This document shows positions 23,899 through 33,745 of a DNA stretch of 52,335 nucleotides, piece by piece (position 1 is the stretch's first letter; each line of letters starts with the position of its first letter). The position numbers were made by a program, and so were the translations under genes. This stretch comes from Candidatus Nanopelagicales bacterium. GTDB lineage: Bacteria; Actinomycetota; Actinomycetes; S36-B12. The notes under the pieces were generated by a model, which did no database searches, was not told the origin of the DNA, and saw only the letters and a program-made list of their open reading frames with translations. The stretch is taken from positions 1 to 52,335 of the forward strand of contig JAURQC010000116.1 in NCBI GenBank assembly GCA_030836325.1, read 5' to 3'.

Positions 23899-25596
23899 TT
23901 AGCCGGTGACAGCTCCCTTGGAGGCGCTGCCCACAAGCTTGGCGTACTTAGCCAGTACACCGCGGTCGTAGCGCGGGGGCAGCGGCTCGAAGGTCGTCCG
24001 GCGAGCAGCCAGTTCGTCGTCGTCCACGAGCACGTCCAGTGTGCGGTTGGGGATGTCGATACGGACCTTGTCCCCGTCGCGCAGCAGCCCGATCGGGCCG
24101 CCGTCCACCGCTTCGGGCGCCACGTGCCCCACGCACAGCCCGGTGGTGCCTCCCGAGAAGCGTCCGTCGGTGATCAGCAGGACATCCTTACCGAGGCCAG
24201 CTCCCTTGATCGCTCCGGTGATCATCAGCATTTCGCGCATCCCCGGCCCACCCTTGGGCCCTTCATAACGAATAACGACGACATCCCCCGCCTGAATCGT
24301 CCCGTCGGAGAGCGCCTCCATCGCCGCCTGCTCGCGGTCAAAGACTTTGGCGGTTCCCTCGAAGACGTCCACCGGGACCCCTGCGTTCTTCACCACTGCC
24401 CCCTCGGGTGCCAGCGACCCGCCGAGGATGGTGATGCCACCGGTGGCCCCGATCGGATTGCCGATGGGTCGGACCACGGTGCCATCGGGCTCGGGGATCT
24501 CGATAGCGGCGAGGTTTTCAGCCATCGTCTTGCCGGTCACGGTCAGCGCATCACCGTGCAGCAGGCCCGCATCGAGCAATGCCTTGAGCACGACCGGAAC
24601 ACCACCCACCTTGTCCAGGTCGAACATCAGGAATTCGCCGAACGGCTTCAGGTCCGCCACGTGCGGCACCTTCGAGCCGATCCGGTGGAAATCGTGCATG
24701 TCGAGTTCCACGCCAACTTCGTAGGCGATCGCGGGCAGGTGCAACACCGCATTGGTGGAACCACCAAGAGCCATGATCACCGCGATGGCGTTCTCCAATG
24801 ACTCCTTGGTGATGATGTCGCGCGCTGTGATGCCTTGCCGGAGCATCTCGACTACTGCCTCACCGCTACGACGAGCCAAGGTGTCGCGACGCGCATCAAC
24901 CGCCGGCGGCGACGACGAACCAGGTAACGCCAAGCCCATGGCTTCCGCAGCGCTGGCCATCGTGTTGGCGGTGTACATGCCACCGCAGGTTCCGGCGCTC
25001 GGACACACCGCGCGCTCGATGCGATCGACGTCTTCATTGCTCATCAAGCCGCGAGCACGGGCACCGACAGCCTCGAATGCGGTCACGATGTTCACCGTCT
25101 CCTCGCTGCCATCGGTCAAGCGCACATGGCCGGGTAGGAGTGAACCCGCATACAGCAGCACCGAGGCGATGTCGAGACGACCAGCAGCCATCATCATCGC
25201 GGGAATCGACTTGTCACATCCCGCGAGAGTGACCATGCCGTCCAACCGCTCGGCCTGCATCACCGTCTCGACCGAATCGGCGATCACCTCGCGGCTCACG
25301 AGCGAGAAGTGCATGCCTTCATGACCCATCGAGATGACGTCGGAAACGGTGATCGTCCCGAATTCCATCGGGAATCCACCGCCTGCTTCGACTCCTTGCG
25401 CAACAGACGTTGCGACATCTCGCAGCGACATATTGCACGGAGTGATCCGGTTGTAACTGTTGGCGATTCCGATTTGCGGCTTGGCGAAGTCGTCGTCGTC
25501 CATTCCCAATGCGCGCAACATCCCCCGATTCGGTGCGCGATCGGGACCATCGGTGACCAGGAAGCTACGGGGTTTCATCTGCGAGGGGGATGCCAT
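23899..25596 (-). CDS. ilvD: IlvD/Edd family dehydratase, paralogue 1
   Basis: A 565-residue iron-sulfur dehydratase. The cluster-binding cysteines lie in ITPCNMS, AGCDKSIPAMM and AGTCGGMYTANTMA; other family blocks are GGFPMEFGTITVSD, SMGHEGMHFSLVSRE, GGSTNAVLHLPAIA and TDGRFSGGTTGLCVGH. Dihydroxy-acid dehydratase makes the 2-oxo acid precursors of valine, leucine and isoleucine. The N-terminus (KPRSFLVTDGPDRAPNRGMLRALGMDDDD) is less like the mycobacterial housekeeping IlvD than that of the second copy at 31140, so this one may be the specialised form. ATG 25596 has TACACT six bases upstream, suggesting a leaderless mRNA. It is divergent from the sulfurtransferase-dehydrogenase-lactonase operon. 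Confidence 0.9.
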   Translation of the reverse strand: MASPSQMKPRSFLVTDGPDRAPNRGMLRALGMDDDDFAKPQIGIANSYNRITPCNMSLRDVATSVAQGVEAGGGFPMEFGTITVSDVISMGHEGMHFSLVSREVIADSVETVMQAERLDGMVTLAGCDKSIPAMMMAAGRLDIASVLLYAGSLLPGHVRLTDGSEETVNIVTAFEAVGARARGLMSNEDVDRIERAVCPSAGTCGGMYTANTMASAAEAMGLALPGSSSPPAVDARRDTLARRSGEAVVEMLRQGITARDIITKESLENAIAVIMALGGSTNAVLHLPAIAYEVGVELDMHDFHRIGSKVPHVADLKPFGEFLMFDLDKVGGVPVVLKALLDAGLLHGDALTVTGKTMAENLAAIEIPEPDGTVVRPIGNPIGATGGITILGGSLAPEGAVVKNAGVPVDVFEGTAKVFDREQAAMEALSDGTIQAGDVVVIRYEGPKGGPGMREMLMITGAIKGAGLGKDVLLITDGRFSGGTTGLCVGHVAPEAVDGGPIGLLRDGDKVRIDIPNRTLDVLVDDDELAARRTTFEPLPPRYDRGVLAKYAKLVGSASKGAVTG

Positions 25597-25602
25597 GCTC
25601 GT

Positions 25603-25608
25603 AGTGTA
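25603..25608 (-). promoter_or_regulatory. Minus-10 element of a probable leaderless ilvD promoter
   Basis: TACACT on the minus strand, six bases before ATG 25596. It is one arm of a small inverted repeat (ACACT/AGTGT, seven bases between) that could also be an operator for the divergent genes. Confidence 0.4.
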
Positions 25609-25664
25609 GGAACCACACTCAGCGGGGGCGCTACAAGCGAACAAGAAAGGGCTGAGACAACGAC

Positions 25665-26522
25665 GTGACTTTCCATACATTGATCACCGCCTCCGAACTA
25701 GAGCACCTGCAGCAATCCGGTGATGAACTGGTGATCTTGGATGCTCGATTCAACCTCGACGACGAAGGCTGGGGTGATCGTGCGTTCGCGCAAGGACATA
25801 TCCCCGGAGCCCAGCGAGCTGACCTTGCGAACGATCTTGGGGGGCCGATCATCGAAGGCGTTACCGGCCGCCGCCCCTGCCCCGATCCAACTGACTTCGA
25901 ACAGACCGTTCGGTCCTGGGGCATCGGCCCCGACACCCAAGTAGTGGTCTACGACGCAGACCGTGGACTCATGGCTGCAGCGCGTGCGTGGTTCATGCTG
26001 CGTTGGCTCGGACACGACGCAGTGGCTGTCCTCGATGGTGGACTTCCGGCGTGGGAAAGCGCCGGACTTCCGCTGACCTCAGATGCCACGACGCCTCCTG
26101 TTCCTGCTCGAGCATTCGAGGCACGGGCGCGCCCGGAGATGCTTGCCGATGTCGATGAAGTGGATCGAATCCGCGTCGAGATCCCCACGCGGGTGTTCGA
26201 TTCACGAGGTCCGGAGGGCTACCACGGCCAAGGTAAGTACTACGACCCCGTCCGCGGTCACATCAAGGGAGCCGGCCTCGCCGATCGCGCCGAGACACTC
26301 AACGACGACGGCACCTTCCGCAGTCCCGAACAGTTGCGTGCCCACTACGACTCCCTGCGCGGCGGACAAGACGGAGACCAGATCGTCTTCTACTGCGGCT
26401 CCGGAGTCACTGCAGCGCAGAACGTCCTGGCGATGGAGCATGCCGGACTACCGGGGGCGCGCATGTACGTCGGATCGTGGAGTGAGTGGATCATCGACCC
26501 CGCACGAGAGGTGGAAATGTGA
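25665..26522 (+). CDS. Two-domain rhodanese sulfurtransferase (thiosulfate/3-mercaptopyruvate type)
   Basis: A 285-residue protein with two rhodanese domains. The N-terminal, non-catalytic half has LVILDARFNLDDEGWGDRAFAQGHIPGAQRADL; the C-terminal half carries the active-site Cys in FYCGSGVTAAQNVLAMEHAGL. The loop CGSGVTA is the mercaptopyruvate sulfurtransferase form (thiosulfate rhodaneses usually have CRKGVTA), so 3-mercaptopyruvate is the likelier sulfur donor. It starts at GTG 25665 without a clear ribosome binding site. It overlaps the next gene by GTGA, so it is co-expressed with the dehydrogenase and lactonase, although a sulfurtransferase has no evident role in sugar oxidation. Confidence 0.88.
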   Translation: MTFHTLITASELEHLQQSGDELVILDARFNLDDEGWGDRAFAQGHIPGAQRADLANDLGGPIIEGVTGRRPCPDPTDFEQTVRSWGIGPDTQVVVYDADRGLMAAARAWFMLRWLGHDAVAVLDGGLPAWESAGLPLTSDATTPPVPARAFEARARPEMLADVDEVDRIRVEIPTRVFDSRGPEGYHGQGKYYDPVRGHIKGAGLADRAETLNDDGTFRSPEQLRAHYDSLRGGQDGDQIVFYCGSGVTAAQNVLAMEHAGLPGARMYVGSWSEWIIDPAREVEM

Positions 26523-32828: not shown

Positions 32829-32834
32829 ACCGGC

Positions 32835-32840
32835 ACTCTA
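32835..32840 (-). promoter_or_regulatory. Minus-10 element of a probable leaderless ilvD2 promoter
   Basis: TAGAGT on the minus strand six bases before ATG 32828, with TTGGCT 16 bases further upstream as a possible minus-35 box. Confidence 0.45.
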
Positions 32841-32854
32841 TTGCGAGCCTGCGG

Positions 32855-33745
32855 CTAGCCAACCACCACGTTGCGTAGCGCAGCGCCATTGCGCCATCGC
32901 TGAACCTGCTCGGCGATGAGACCACGTGCTAAGCGCGGAAACGCATCGGTGTCGCCACCGATGTGCGGACTGATCACAACCCCGGGGGCTGACCACAACG
33001 GATGCTCGGCCGGCAAGGGTTCGGGGTCGGTGACATCAAGGGCGAACTCCAACCGCCCGGCATGGGTGAGCAGATCCTCGGTCACCGCGACCGGACCGCG
33101 GGCGACGTTCACTACCAGTGCGCCGTCGGGCAGTCGTGACAAGAACGCGTCGTCGACCATGCCGCGGGTTTCCTCGCTCAACGGCACCGCGAGCACCACG
33201 ACGTCAGCCTCGGGAAGCAAGTACTCGAGATCCTCCGGGCCGGCCACCCCCTCGCGTGGTGTGCGACCCACCCGCGTGATGTCACAGCCGAACACAGCCA
33301 GGCAGTTCGAGATTGCGGTGCCTACTCCTCCGGTCCCAACGATCACCACCCGAGCTTGCTGCAGGGACCGACCACGACGGTGATCCCACGTGCCACTTGC
33401 CATATCTCGCGCTGCGCGGTCCAGTCCACGCCACCGAGCGATAACGAGGCCCACCGTGAGTTCTGCGGTGCTTTGCTCGTGCACGCCGGCGGCATTGCAC
33501 AGCGTCACTTCGGCCGGTAAATGCGGCAGCACTGCGTCGAAGCCGACCGTAGGAAGTTGCACTACTTCCAGCCCAGGCATCTTCGCCATCCAGACCGCAT
33601 TCGGGTGCTCGATGTAGGCCGGGACGAAGAAGCCCACCTGCTCGAGAATTTCGGTATCCGGTAACTGTCCCTCGCGATACCCGACCGCTGGCCCGATGTT
33701 CTCGGGAAGCAGATAGTCCGGCGCGAGGACGACAGTGTTAGCCAT
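32855..33745 (-). CDS. D-isomer-specific 2-hydroxyacid dehydrogenase
   Basis: A 296-residue NAD(P)-dependent 2-hydroxyacid dehydrogenase. Visible are VVIVGTGGVGTAI (cofactor loop, about 132), RVGRTPREG (basic residues that may favour NADP), LPEADVVVLAVPLSEETRGM, VNVARGPV with the catalytic Arg, DVTDPEPLPAEHPLW with the Glu region, and ISPHIGGDT with the catalytic His. It would interconvert a 2-oxo acid and a D-2-hydroxy acid, such as glyoxylate or hydroxypyruvate. ATG 33745 overlaps the gatB end by 8 bases. It links the housekeeping operon to the ilvD2-FAH side of the catabolic island. Confidence 0.88.
   Translation of the reverse strand: MANTVVLAPDYLLPENIGPAVGYREGQLPDTEILEQVGFFVPAYIEHPNAVWMAKMPGLEVVQLPTVGFDAVLPHLPAEVTLCNAAGVHEQSTAELTVGLVIARWRGLDRAARDMASGTWDHRRGRSLQQARVVIVGTGGVGTAISNCLAVFGCDITRVGRTPREGVAGPEDLEYLLPEADVVVLAVPLSEETRGMVDDAFLSRLPDGALVVNVARGPVAVTEDLLTHAGRLEFALDVTDPEPLPAEHPLWSAPGVVISPHIGGDTDAFPRLARGLIAEQVQRWRNGAALRNVVVG

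Follow-up and report, generated by a model that had tools for sequence, protein, structure and literature searches.

Degradation of the branched sugar D-apiose reportedly proceeds through an oxidative pathway, attributed to Carter in 2018, that involves ApsD, ApnL, ApnO, OiaK and either OiaX or OiaC. This D-apiose oxidative pathway is cited in one paper (PMC6302742), and its enzymes are listed in another (PMC11747546). Two further described systems are close to the subject of this study: the dihydroxyacid dehydratase (DHAD, IlvD) of valine and isoleucine synthesis and the Route III non-phosphorylating diketo-hydrolase pathways (described for H. huttiense; PMC6336799). Here, we analyze a locus at positions 23899–30975 of a 52,335-nucleotide stretch of DNA from Candidatus Nanopelagicales bacterium (contig JAURQC010000116.1, herein referred to as the window), in which a homologue of D-apiose dehydrogenase and a lactonase are encoded beside an additional DHAD-like protein, IlvD1.

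The locus resembles the D-apiose oxidative pathway in its first two enzymes, by homology, and in the adjacency of their genes; it differs in having IlvD1, an SDR-family dehydrogenase, a FAH-family hydrolase and a sulfurtransferase, and in that a search of 19 operon-bearing genomes brought up no close homologue of ApnO, OiaK or OiaX. IlvD1 shares with the DHAD of valine and isoleucine synthesis its sequence family, its Fe–S and Mg ligands and its branched-chain-class markers, whereas it is set apart by residues fixed differently around the Mg ligand, the second Cys, hotspot 224 and the third Cys, by its linkage to the operon and by being a second copy beside a canonical DHAD. The logic of dehydratase, SDR and FAH is that of Route III (PMC6336799), but the window locus has an ApsD-type dehydrogenase, an ApnL-like lactonase and a DHAD-class dehydratase, and FAH is not always present. 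The locus is real and conserved, and we found it described nowhere in the open-access literature, where searches for apiose and apionate brought up no title on an apionate dehydratase. We hypothesize that D-apiose, or a branched sugar close to it, is broken down without phosphorylation by the enzymes encoded here, with IlvD1 as the dehydratase, a tentative reading that we place a little short of an even chance. The features of the locus and its context are as follows:

23899–25596, minus strand: IlvD1, DHAD-derived Fe–S dehydratase paralogue, proposed branched sugar-acid (D-apionate) dehydratase (TIGR00110 and 565-residue orthologues)
25597–25664, no strand: intergenic region separating IlvD1 from the divergent operon (68 bases; from the sequence, with the start inferred from orthologue length)
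25665–26522, plus strand: two-domain sulfurtransferase of the 3-mercaptopyruvate sulfurtransferase type, active loop CGSGVTA (PF00581, two stretches)
26519–27547, plus strand: Gfo/Idh/MocA dehydrogenase, D-apiose dehydrogenase (ApsD) homologue
27544–29322, plus strand: lactonase-like protein, distant ApnL family member (NF049900, 261.6 bits)
29333–30154, plus strand: SDR dehydrogenase (PF13561)
30133–30975, minus strand: FAH-family hydrolase, facultative member (NF053535, PDB 8gsr)
31140–32828, minus strand: IlvD2, housekeeping DHAD with canonical motifs, context outside the pathway
32855–33790, minus strand: 2-hydroxyacid dehydrogenase of the gatAB locus, context outside the pathway

The sulfurtransferase, Gfo/Idh/MocA dehydrogenase, lactonase and SDR genes form a four-gene operon on the plus strand, in which the first and second and the second and third genes overlap by 4 bases and the SDR gene begins 10 bases past the lactonase gene; this arrangement, like the gene positions, is just as a preliminary description of this DNA had given it. 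IlvD1 diverges from the operon: its longest open reading frame is 23899–25680 (minus strand), and since its orthologues are 565 residues long we place the start at 25596, which leaves 68 bases between the divergent starts. The FAH gene is convergent with the SDR gene, and gatB and then gatA follow the 2-hydroxyacid dehydrogenase gene on the minus strand.

A lactonase scan over 84,980 species, with one genome each, returned 128 relatives, of which 80 were kept. Of the ten nearest (L001–L010; 53–68%), most bear labels of Nanopelagicales, Micrococcales or further Actinobacteria and one that of Rubrivirga; to the extent of their contigs they have the same gene order as the window. Because this order recurs in public genomes, the locus is not a product of chance, and the neighborhood conservation that the preliminary description had wished to see checked is indeed present; positions 23899–30975 are confirmed as a conserved locus of Nanopelagicales-type Actinobacteria. 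An ApsD-type dehydrogenase (E up to 1e-60, the threshold used throughout) occurs in 32 of 166 genomes (order of G003), and our locus table comprises 33 genomes (31 of these 32 together with G085 and G142). Counting the upstream slot only where at least 300 bases upstream of the sulfurtransferase gene were covered (31 loci), a divergent IlvD gene is found no more than 150 bases from the operon in 27; it lies about 2 kb from the sulfurtransferase gene in G138 and is absent beside the operon in G059, G089 and G130. FAH follows the SDR gene in 17 of 25 covered loci (the G084 copy is broken and the G131 copy lies 737 bases away). The assemblies also show interrupted genes, namely FAH in G084 (L089:7991-8434), the ApsD homologue in G003 (L006) and IlvD1 in G145 (L115).

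Both IlvD proteins pass the ilvD model TIGR00110 (IlvD1 with 727.7 bits against an equivalog cut-off of 618.15), and IlvD1 has retained all three Cys ligands, both the Asp and the Lys of the Mg site, and the serine of SGGT, as would suit a further DHAD serving branched-chain amino acid synthesis that simply happens to lie next to a sugar operon. We consider such an isozyme very improbable on the distribution and divergence of the two copies. Among the matches listed, two DHAD-like places occur in 27 of the 166 genomes, and an ApsD homologue is found in 24 of these 27 versus 8 of the 139 others (Fisher p = 5e-19); as for the remaining three, the second copy adjoins a sulfurtransferase gene in G085 and G142, whose contigs end inside the operon, and the G123 copy is cut by a contig end. 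Moreover, a comparison of 22 IlvD1 with 17 IlvD2 sequences shows 16 positions with a different fixed residue in each group (at least 90% within the group), and nine of them fall in active-site segments: S111T and G115V (IlvD2 to IlvD1) in the Mg ligand segment, L159I and G161A at the second Cys, T197N, I199V and D200T at hotspot 224, and E229A and A231T at the third Cys. In alignment, IlvD2 has the motifs SDGISMG, GCDKSLPG, VTIID and GEGACGG in common with the Mycobacterium tuberculosis DHAD, where IlvD1 has SDVISMG, GCDKSIPA, VNIVT and xAGTCGG. The best IlvD carries the IlvD2 motifs in all 20 of the ApsD-negative genomes examined (of 134), two further copies from operon-bearing genomes (L155, L158) have those of IlvD1, and G137 has a second copy of mixed type.

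IlvD2 is the housekeeping dehydratase of branched-chain amino acid synthesis. It also occurs with gatAB in three genomes that have no ApsD homologue at the above threshold (G074, L097; G062, L098; G113, L099), and a 2-hydroxyacid dehydrogenase gene lies near ilvD2 in all three loci. The preliminary description had drawn both IlvD paralogues and the 2-hydroxyacid dehydrogenase into the pathway; only IlvD1, tied to the operon and changed in its active site, keeps that place; the other two proteins are part of the housekeeping gatAB locus. The ilvD2 slot of G005 (L009) holds an E. coli-type DHAD (PRK12448, 1159.8 bits against a cut-off of 710), with IlvD1 retained. In the housekeeping slot beside gatB (L009:11115-13052) or FAH (L008:4737-6551), the DHAD is only 43% identical to IlvD2.

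The class of IlvD1 bears on its substrate. The sugar-acid dehydratase class of the IlvD/EDD family is marked by Gly at hotspot 261, an SGTA motif and a C-terminal His (PMC9314677). Mapped onto IlvD1 from the Cys ligands, these markers are missing (Tyr236 at hotspot 261, SGGT, no C-terminal His), and by the class markers, Asp114 and Val199 included, IlvD1 is predicted to remain a branched-chain-type dehydratase. The best fit would thus be a small branched substrate with more hydroxyls, for which D-apionate is a natural candidate.

The same markers speak against a linear sugar (a deoxyhexose or pentose) degraded by the known diketo-hydrolase route, in which dehydrogenase, lactonase, dehydratase, an SDR acting as 4-dehydrogenase and FAH would yield pyruvate and a 2-hydroxyacid. 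The gene functions do fit Route III, and the best PDB match of the FAH protein is L-2,4-diketo-3-deoxyrhamnonate hydrolase (8gsr, 261 bits), to which it aligns with the catalytic H-x-x-E pair present (compared with PMC6336799); on NF053535 (diketo-rhamnonate/fuconate hydrolase) it scores 345.9 bits, under the equivalog cut-off of 500. With a dehydrogenase that is ApsD-like, a dehydratase devoid of the sugar-acid markers and a FAH slot that is empty in 8 of the 25 covered loci, we judge a linear substrate clearly unlikely.

The assignment to a D-apiose-like sugar begins with the dehydrogenase, which has the Gfo/Idh/MocA fold and whose closest structure match is the D-apiose dehydrogenase of Agrobacterium radiobacter. 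As the preliminary description had proposed, it is a member of the ApsD family, with D-apiose oxidation predicted from its sequence. Its gene overlaps that of an ApnL-family lactonase, a pairing also met in other loci. The likeness of this second enzyme to D-apionate lactonase held in part: a profile check makes it a distant ApnL relative below the NCBI cut-off for ApnL. Among its relatives, NF049900 scores are 242–269 bits in L009, L086 and L088, 502–569 in L072 and L126 (the alphaproteobacterial second type treated below) and 805–1030 in L120–L122. Across 45 family members (the window and 44 of the 80 loci) 33 columns are invariant, the window protein keeps the family-invariant residues, and a confident structure model was obtained for it.

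The later steps of the known route were looked for with Shinella queries for ApnO, OiaK and OiaX in 19 operon-bearing draft genomes, the Shinella plasmid being recovered each time. Of these queries, the kinase reaches 446.8 on the OiaK model, whose cut-off is 700, and the protein taken as ApnO has no match among the NCBIfam models. In these 19 drafts there was no close ApnO homologue (one weak match of 89 residues in G122), no OiaK match and no close OiaX homologue; weak OiaX matches of 26–29% in G001, G002, G003, G004 and G136 are probably true RuBisCO large subunits. Within this search, which covered ApnO, OiaK and OiaX and left out OiaC and the transketolase and isomerase variants, the view that the known apionate route is not the one used here was supported.

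A second architecture occurs in Alphaproteobacteria, where lactonase and ApsD genes lie near SDR and sulfurtransferase genes in eight loci (L044, L046, L064, L068, L072, L079, L126 and L127). Their sulfurtransferases are 30–34% identical to that of the window (57% in L079; that of L126 is assigned from annotation and NF008557), and the L079 SDR, truncated by a contig end, is 57% identical. The SDR homologue segments carry a YxxxK-type motif in 42 of 42 cases, and all 44 homologue segments long enough to include the sulfurtransferase loop show its pattern (with some loci represented twice); the window sulfurtransferase scores 113.3 bits on NF008557 against a cut-off of 250. The sulfurtransferase had no role in the pathway of the preliminary description, yet it belongs to the conserved core and is shared with Alphaproteobacteria; that it and the SDR accompany ApsD and lactonase across two phyla argues for some function of the sulfurtransferase. 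An ABC transporter precedes the lactonase gene in L046 and L126 and, by clustering, in others, and no OiaK or OiaX gene was noted beside the eight clusters. In L046 (313-4317), genes for a 4-hydroxy-2-oxovalerate aldolase, a sugar-acid-type IlvD, an SDR and a glyoxalase-like protein adjoin the apiose-type cluster, where breakdown of a hydroxymethyl 2-oxo acid by retro-aldol cleavage is conceivable.

Several observations weigh against a D-apiose route through IlvD1. The alphaproteobacterial loci show no adjacent DHAD-class dehydratase; no IlvD adjoins the full core in G059 and G089 or the sulfurtransferase–ApsD pair in G130; and the FAH slot is empty in G059, G085, G089, G135, G138, G145, G161 and G163. 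In a tree, ApsD of the window kind, canonical ApsD and the second type from Alphaproteobacteria form three separate groups, so that the window protein lies outside the canonical group and is not nested among the ApsD proteins of OiaX clusters. The lactonase reaches 261.6 bits on NF049900, where the equivalog cut-off is 750, and it diverges more rapidly than its neighbors (53–68% versus 81–91% for ApsD in L001–L010). The enrichment of IlvD1 substitutions in the active site (p = 1e-4 relative to sites conserved in both groups) was computed on segments picked after the substitutions had been seen, and the third-Cys motif GTCGG stands half-way to that of the promiscuous class (GTCSG; PMC9314677), so a broader substrate range is possible. 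No apiosidase exceeded the PF13204 cut-off in the 166 genomes. The neighbors scanned showed no transporter, and among 30 window proteins scanned with Pfam (from a subset of the window's open reading frames; five of the 30 matched no family) there was neither a transporter nor a regulator family, in agreement with the preliminary description.

The loci that have the core and no adjacent IlvD would suit a scheme in which a D-apiose-like sugar is degraded by SDR and sulfurtransferase straight after the lactonase, with IlvD1 and FAH, added in Actinobacteria, working at a later point or on a by-product. However, the IlvD gene starts less than 150 bases from the operon, divergently, in most covered actinobacterial loci, and alphaproteobacterial chemistry may differ: an aldo-keto reductase gene follows ApsD in five of the eight loci (L044, L046, L072, L079 and L126; not seen in L064 and L068, with L127 not looked at). 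We regard this scheme as unlikely. A transketolase-like fragment (L085:2-511) adjoins the SDR gene in G089, which lacks IlvD1 and FAH beside the operon.

In the route through IlvD1 that we favor, the ApsD homologue would oxidize the sugar to its lactone, by homology, and the lactonase, by distant homology, would open the lactone to the aldonate, D-apionate. IlvD1, a duplicated and reshaped DHAD, would then remove water from C2/C3 of D-apionate, a step proposed because D-apionate is dihydroxyisovalerate with two CH2OH groups replacing the two CH3 groups; the product would be 4-hydroxy-3-(hydroxymethyl)-2-oxobutanoate. More speculatively, the SDR may oxidize one CH2OH to give a 1,3-dicarbonyl, which FAH, where present, may cleave to formate and 4-hydroxy-2-oxobutanoate. 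Support of the Fe–S cluster of IlvD1 is the simplest guess for the sulfurtransferase, and IlvD2 would make branched-chain amino acids. A dehydratase role of IlvD1 in the locus is likely from the sequence evidence, and D-apionate as its substrate is about an even call. Support for the earlier idea that an IlvD paralogue dehydrates D-apionate is genetic (the position beside the operon and the fixed substitutions); the SDR and FAH steps, also proposed earlier, and their order stay tentative because FAH occupies its slot in only part of the covered loci. In the full scenario, the D-apionate dehydratase with which Nanopelagicales-type Actinobacteria degrade D-apiose would descend from a duplicated DHAD of the valine pathway; SDR and, in many lineages, FAH would act after it, and the sulfurtransferase would be a core component that Alphaproteobacteria share. 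This scenario is somewhat doubtful and falls below an even chance.

Outside these genes, a GC-rich inverted repeat of 12 pairs lies between FAH and ilvD2 (31049–31075), with further similar stretches just downstream, and an mraW RNA motif (Rfam RF01746, 63.6 bits) lies at 4739–4846 on the minus strand, upstream of the MraW methylase gene. A tRNA search of the window found none.

If the route is as proposed, aquatic actinobacteria would possess a further way to use a branched sugar that occurs in aquatic plants and in the cell walls of plants, one that draws on the chemistry of branched-chain amino acids, and it would provide a clean case of a biosynthetic Fe–S dehydratase recruited to catabolism. 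The recurring sulfurtransferase would point to a new step or helper. Few fixed positions in the active site distinguish IlvD1 from IlvD2, so that substrate switching in this family would be directly testable.

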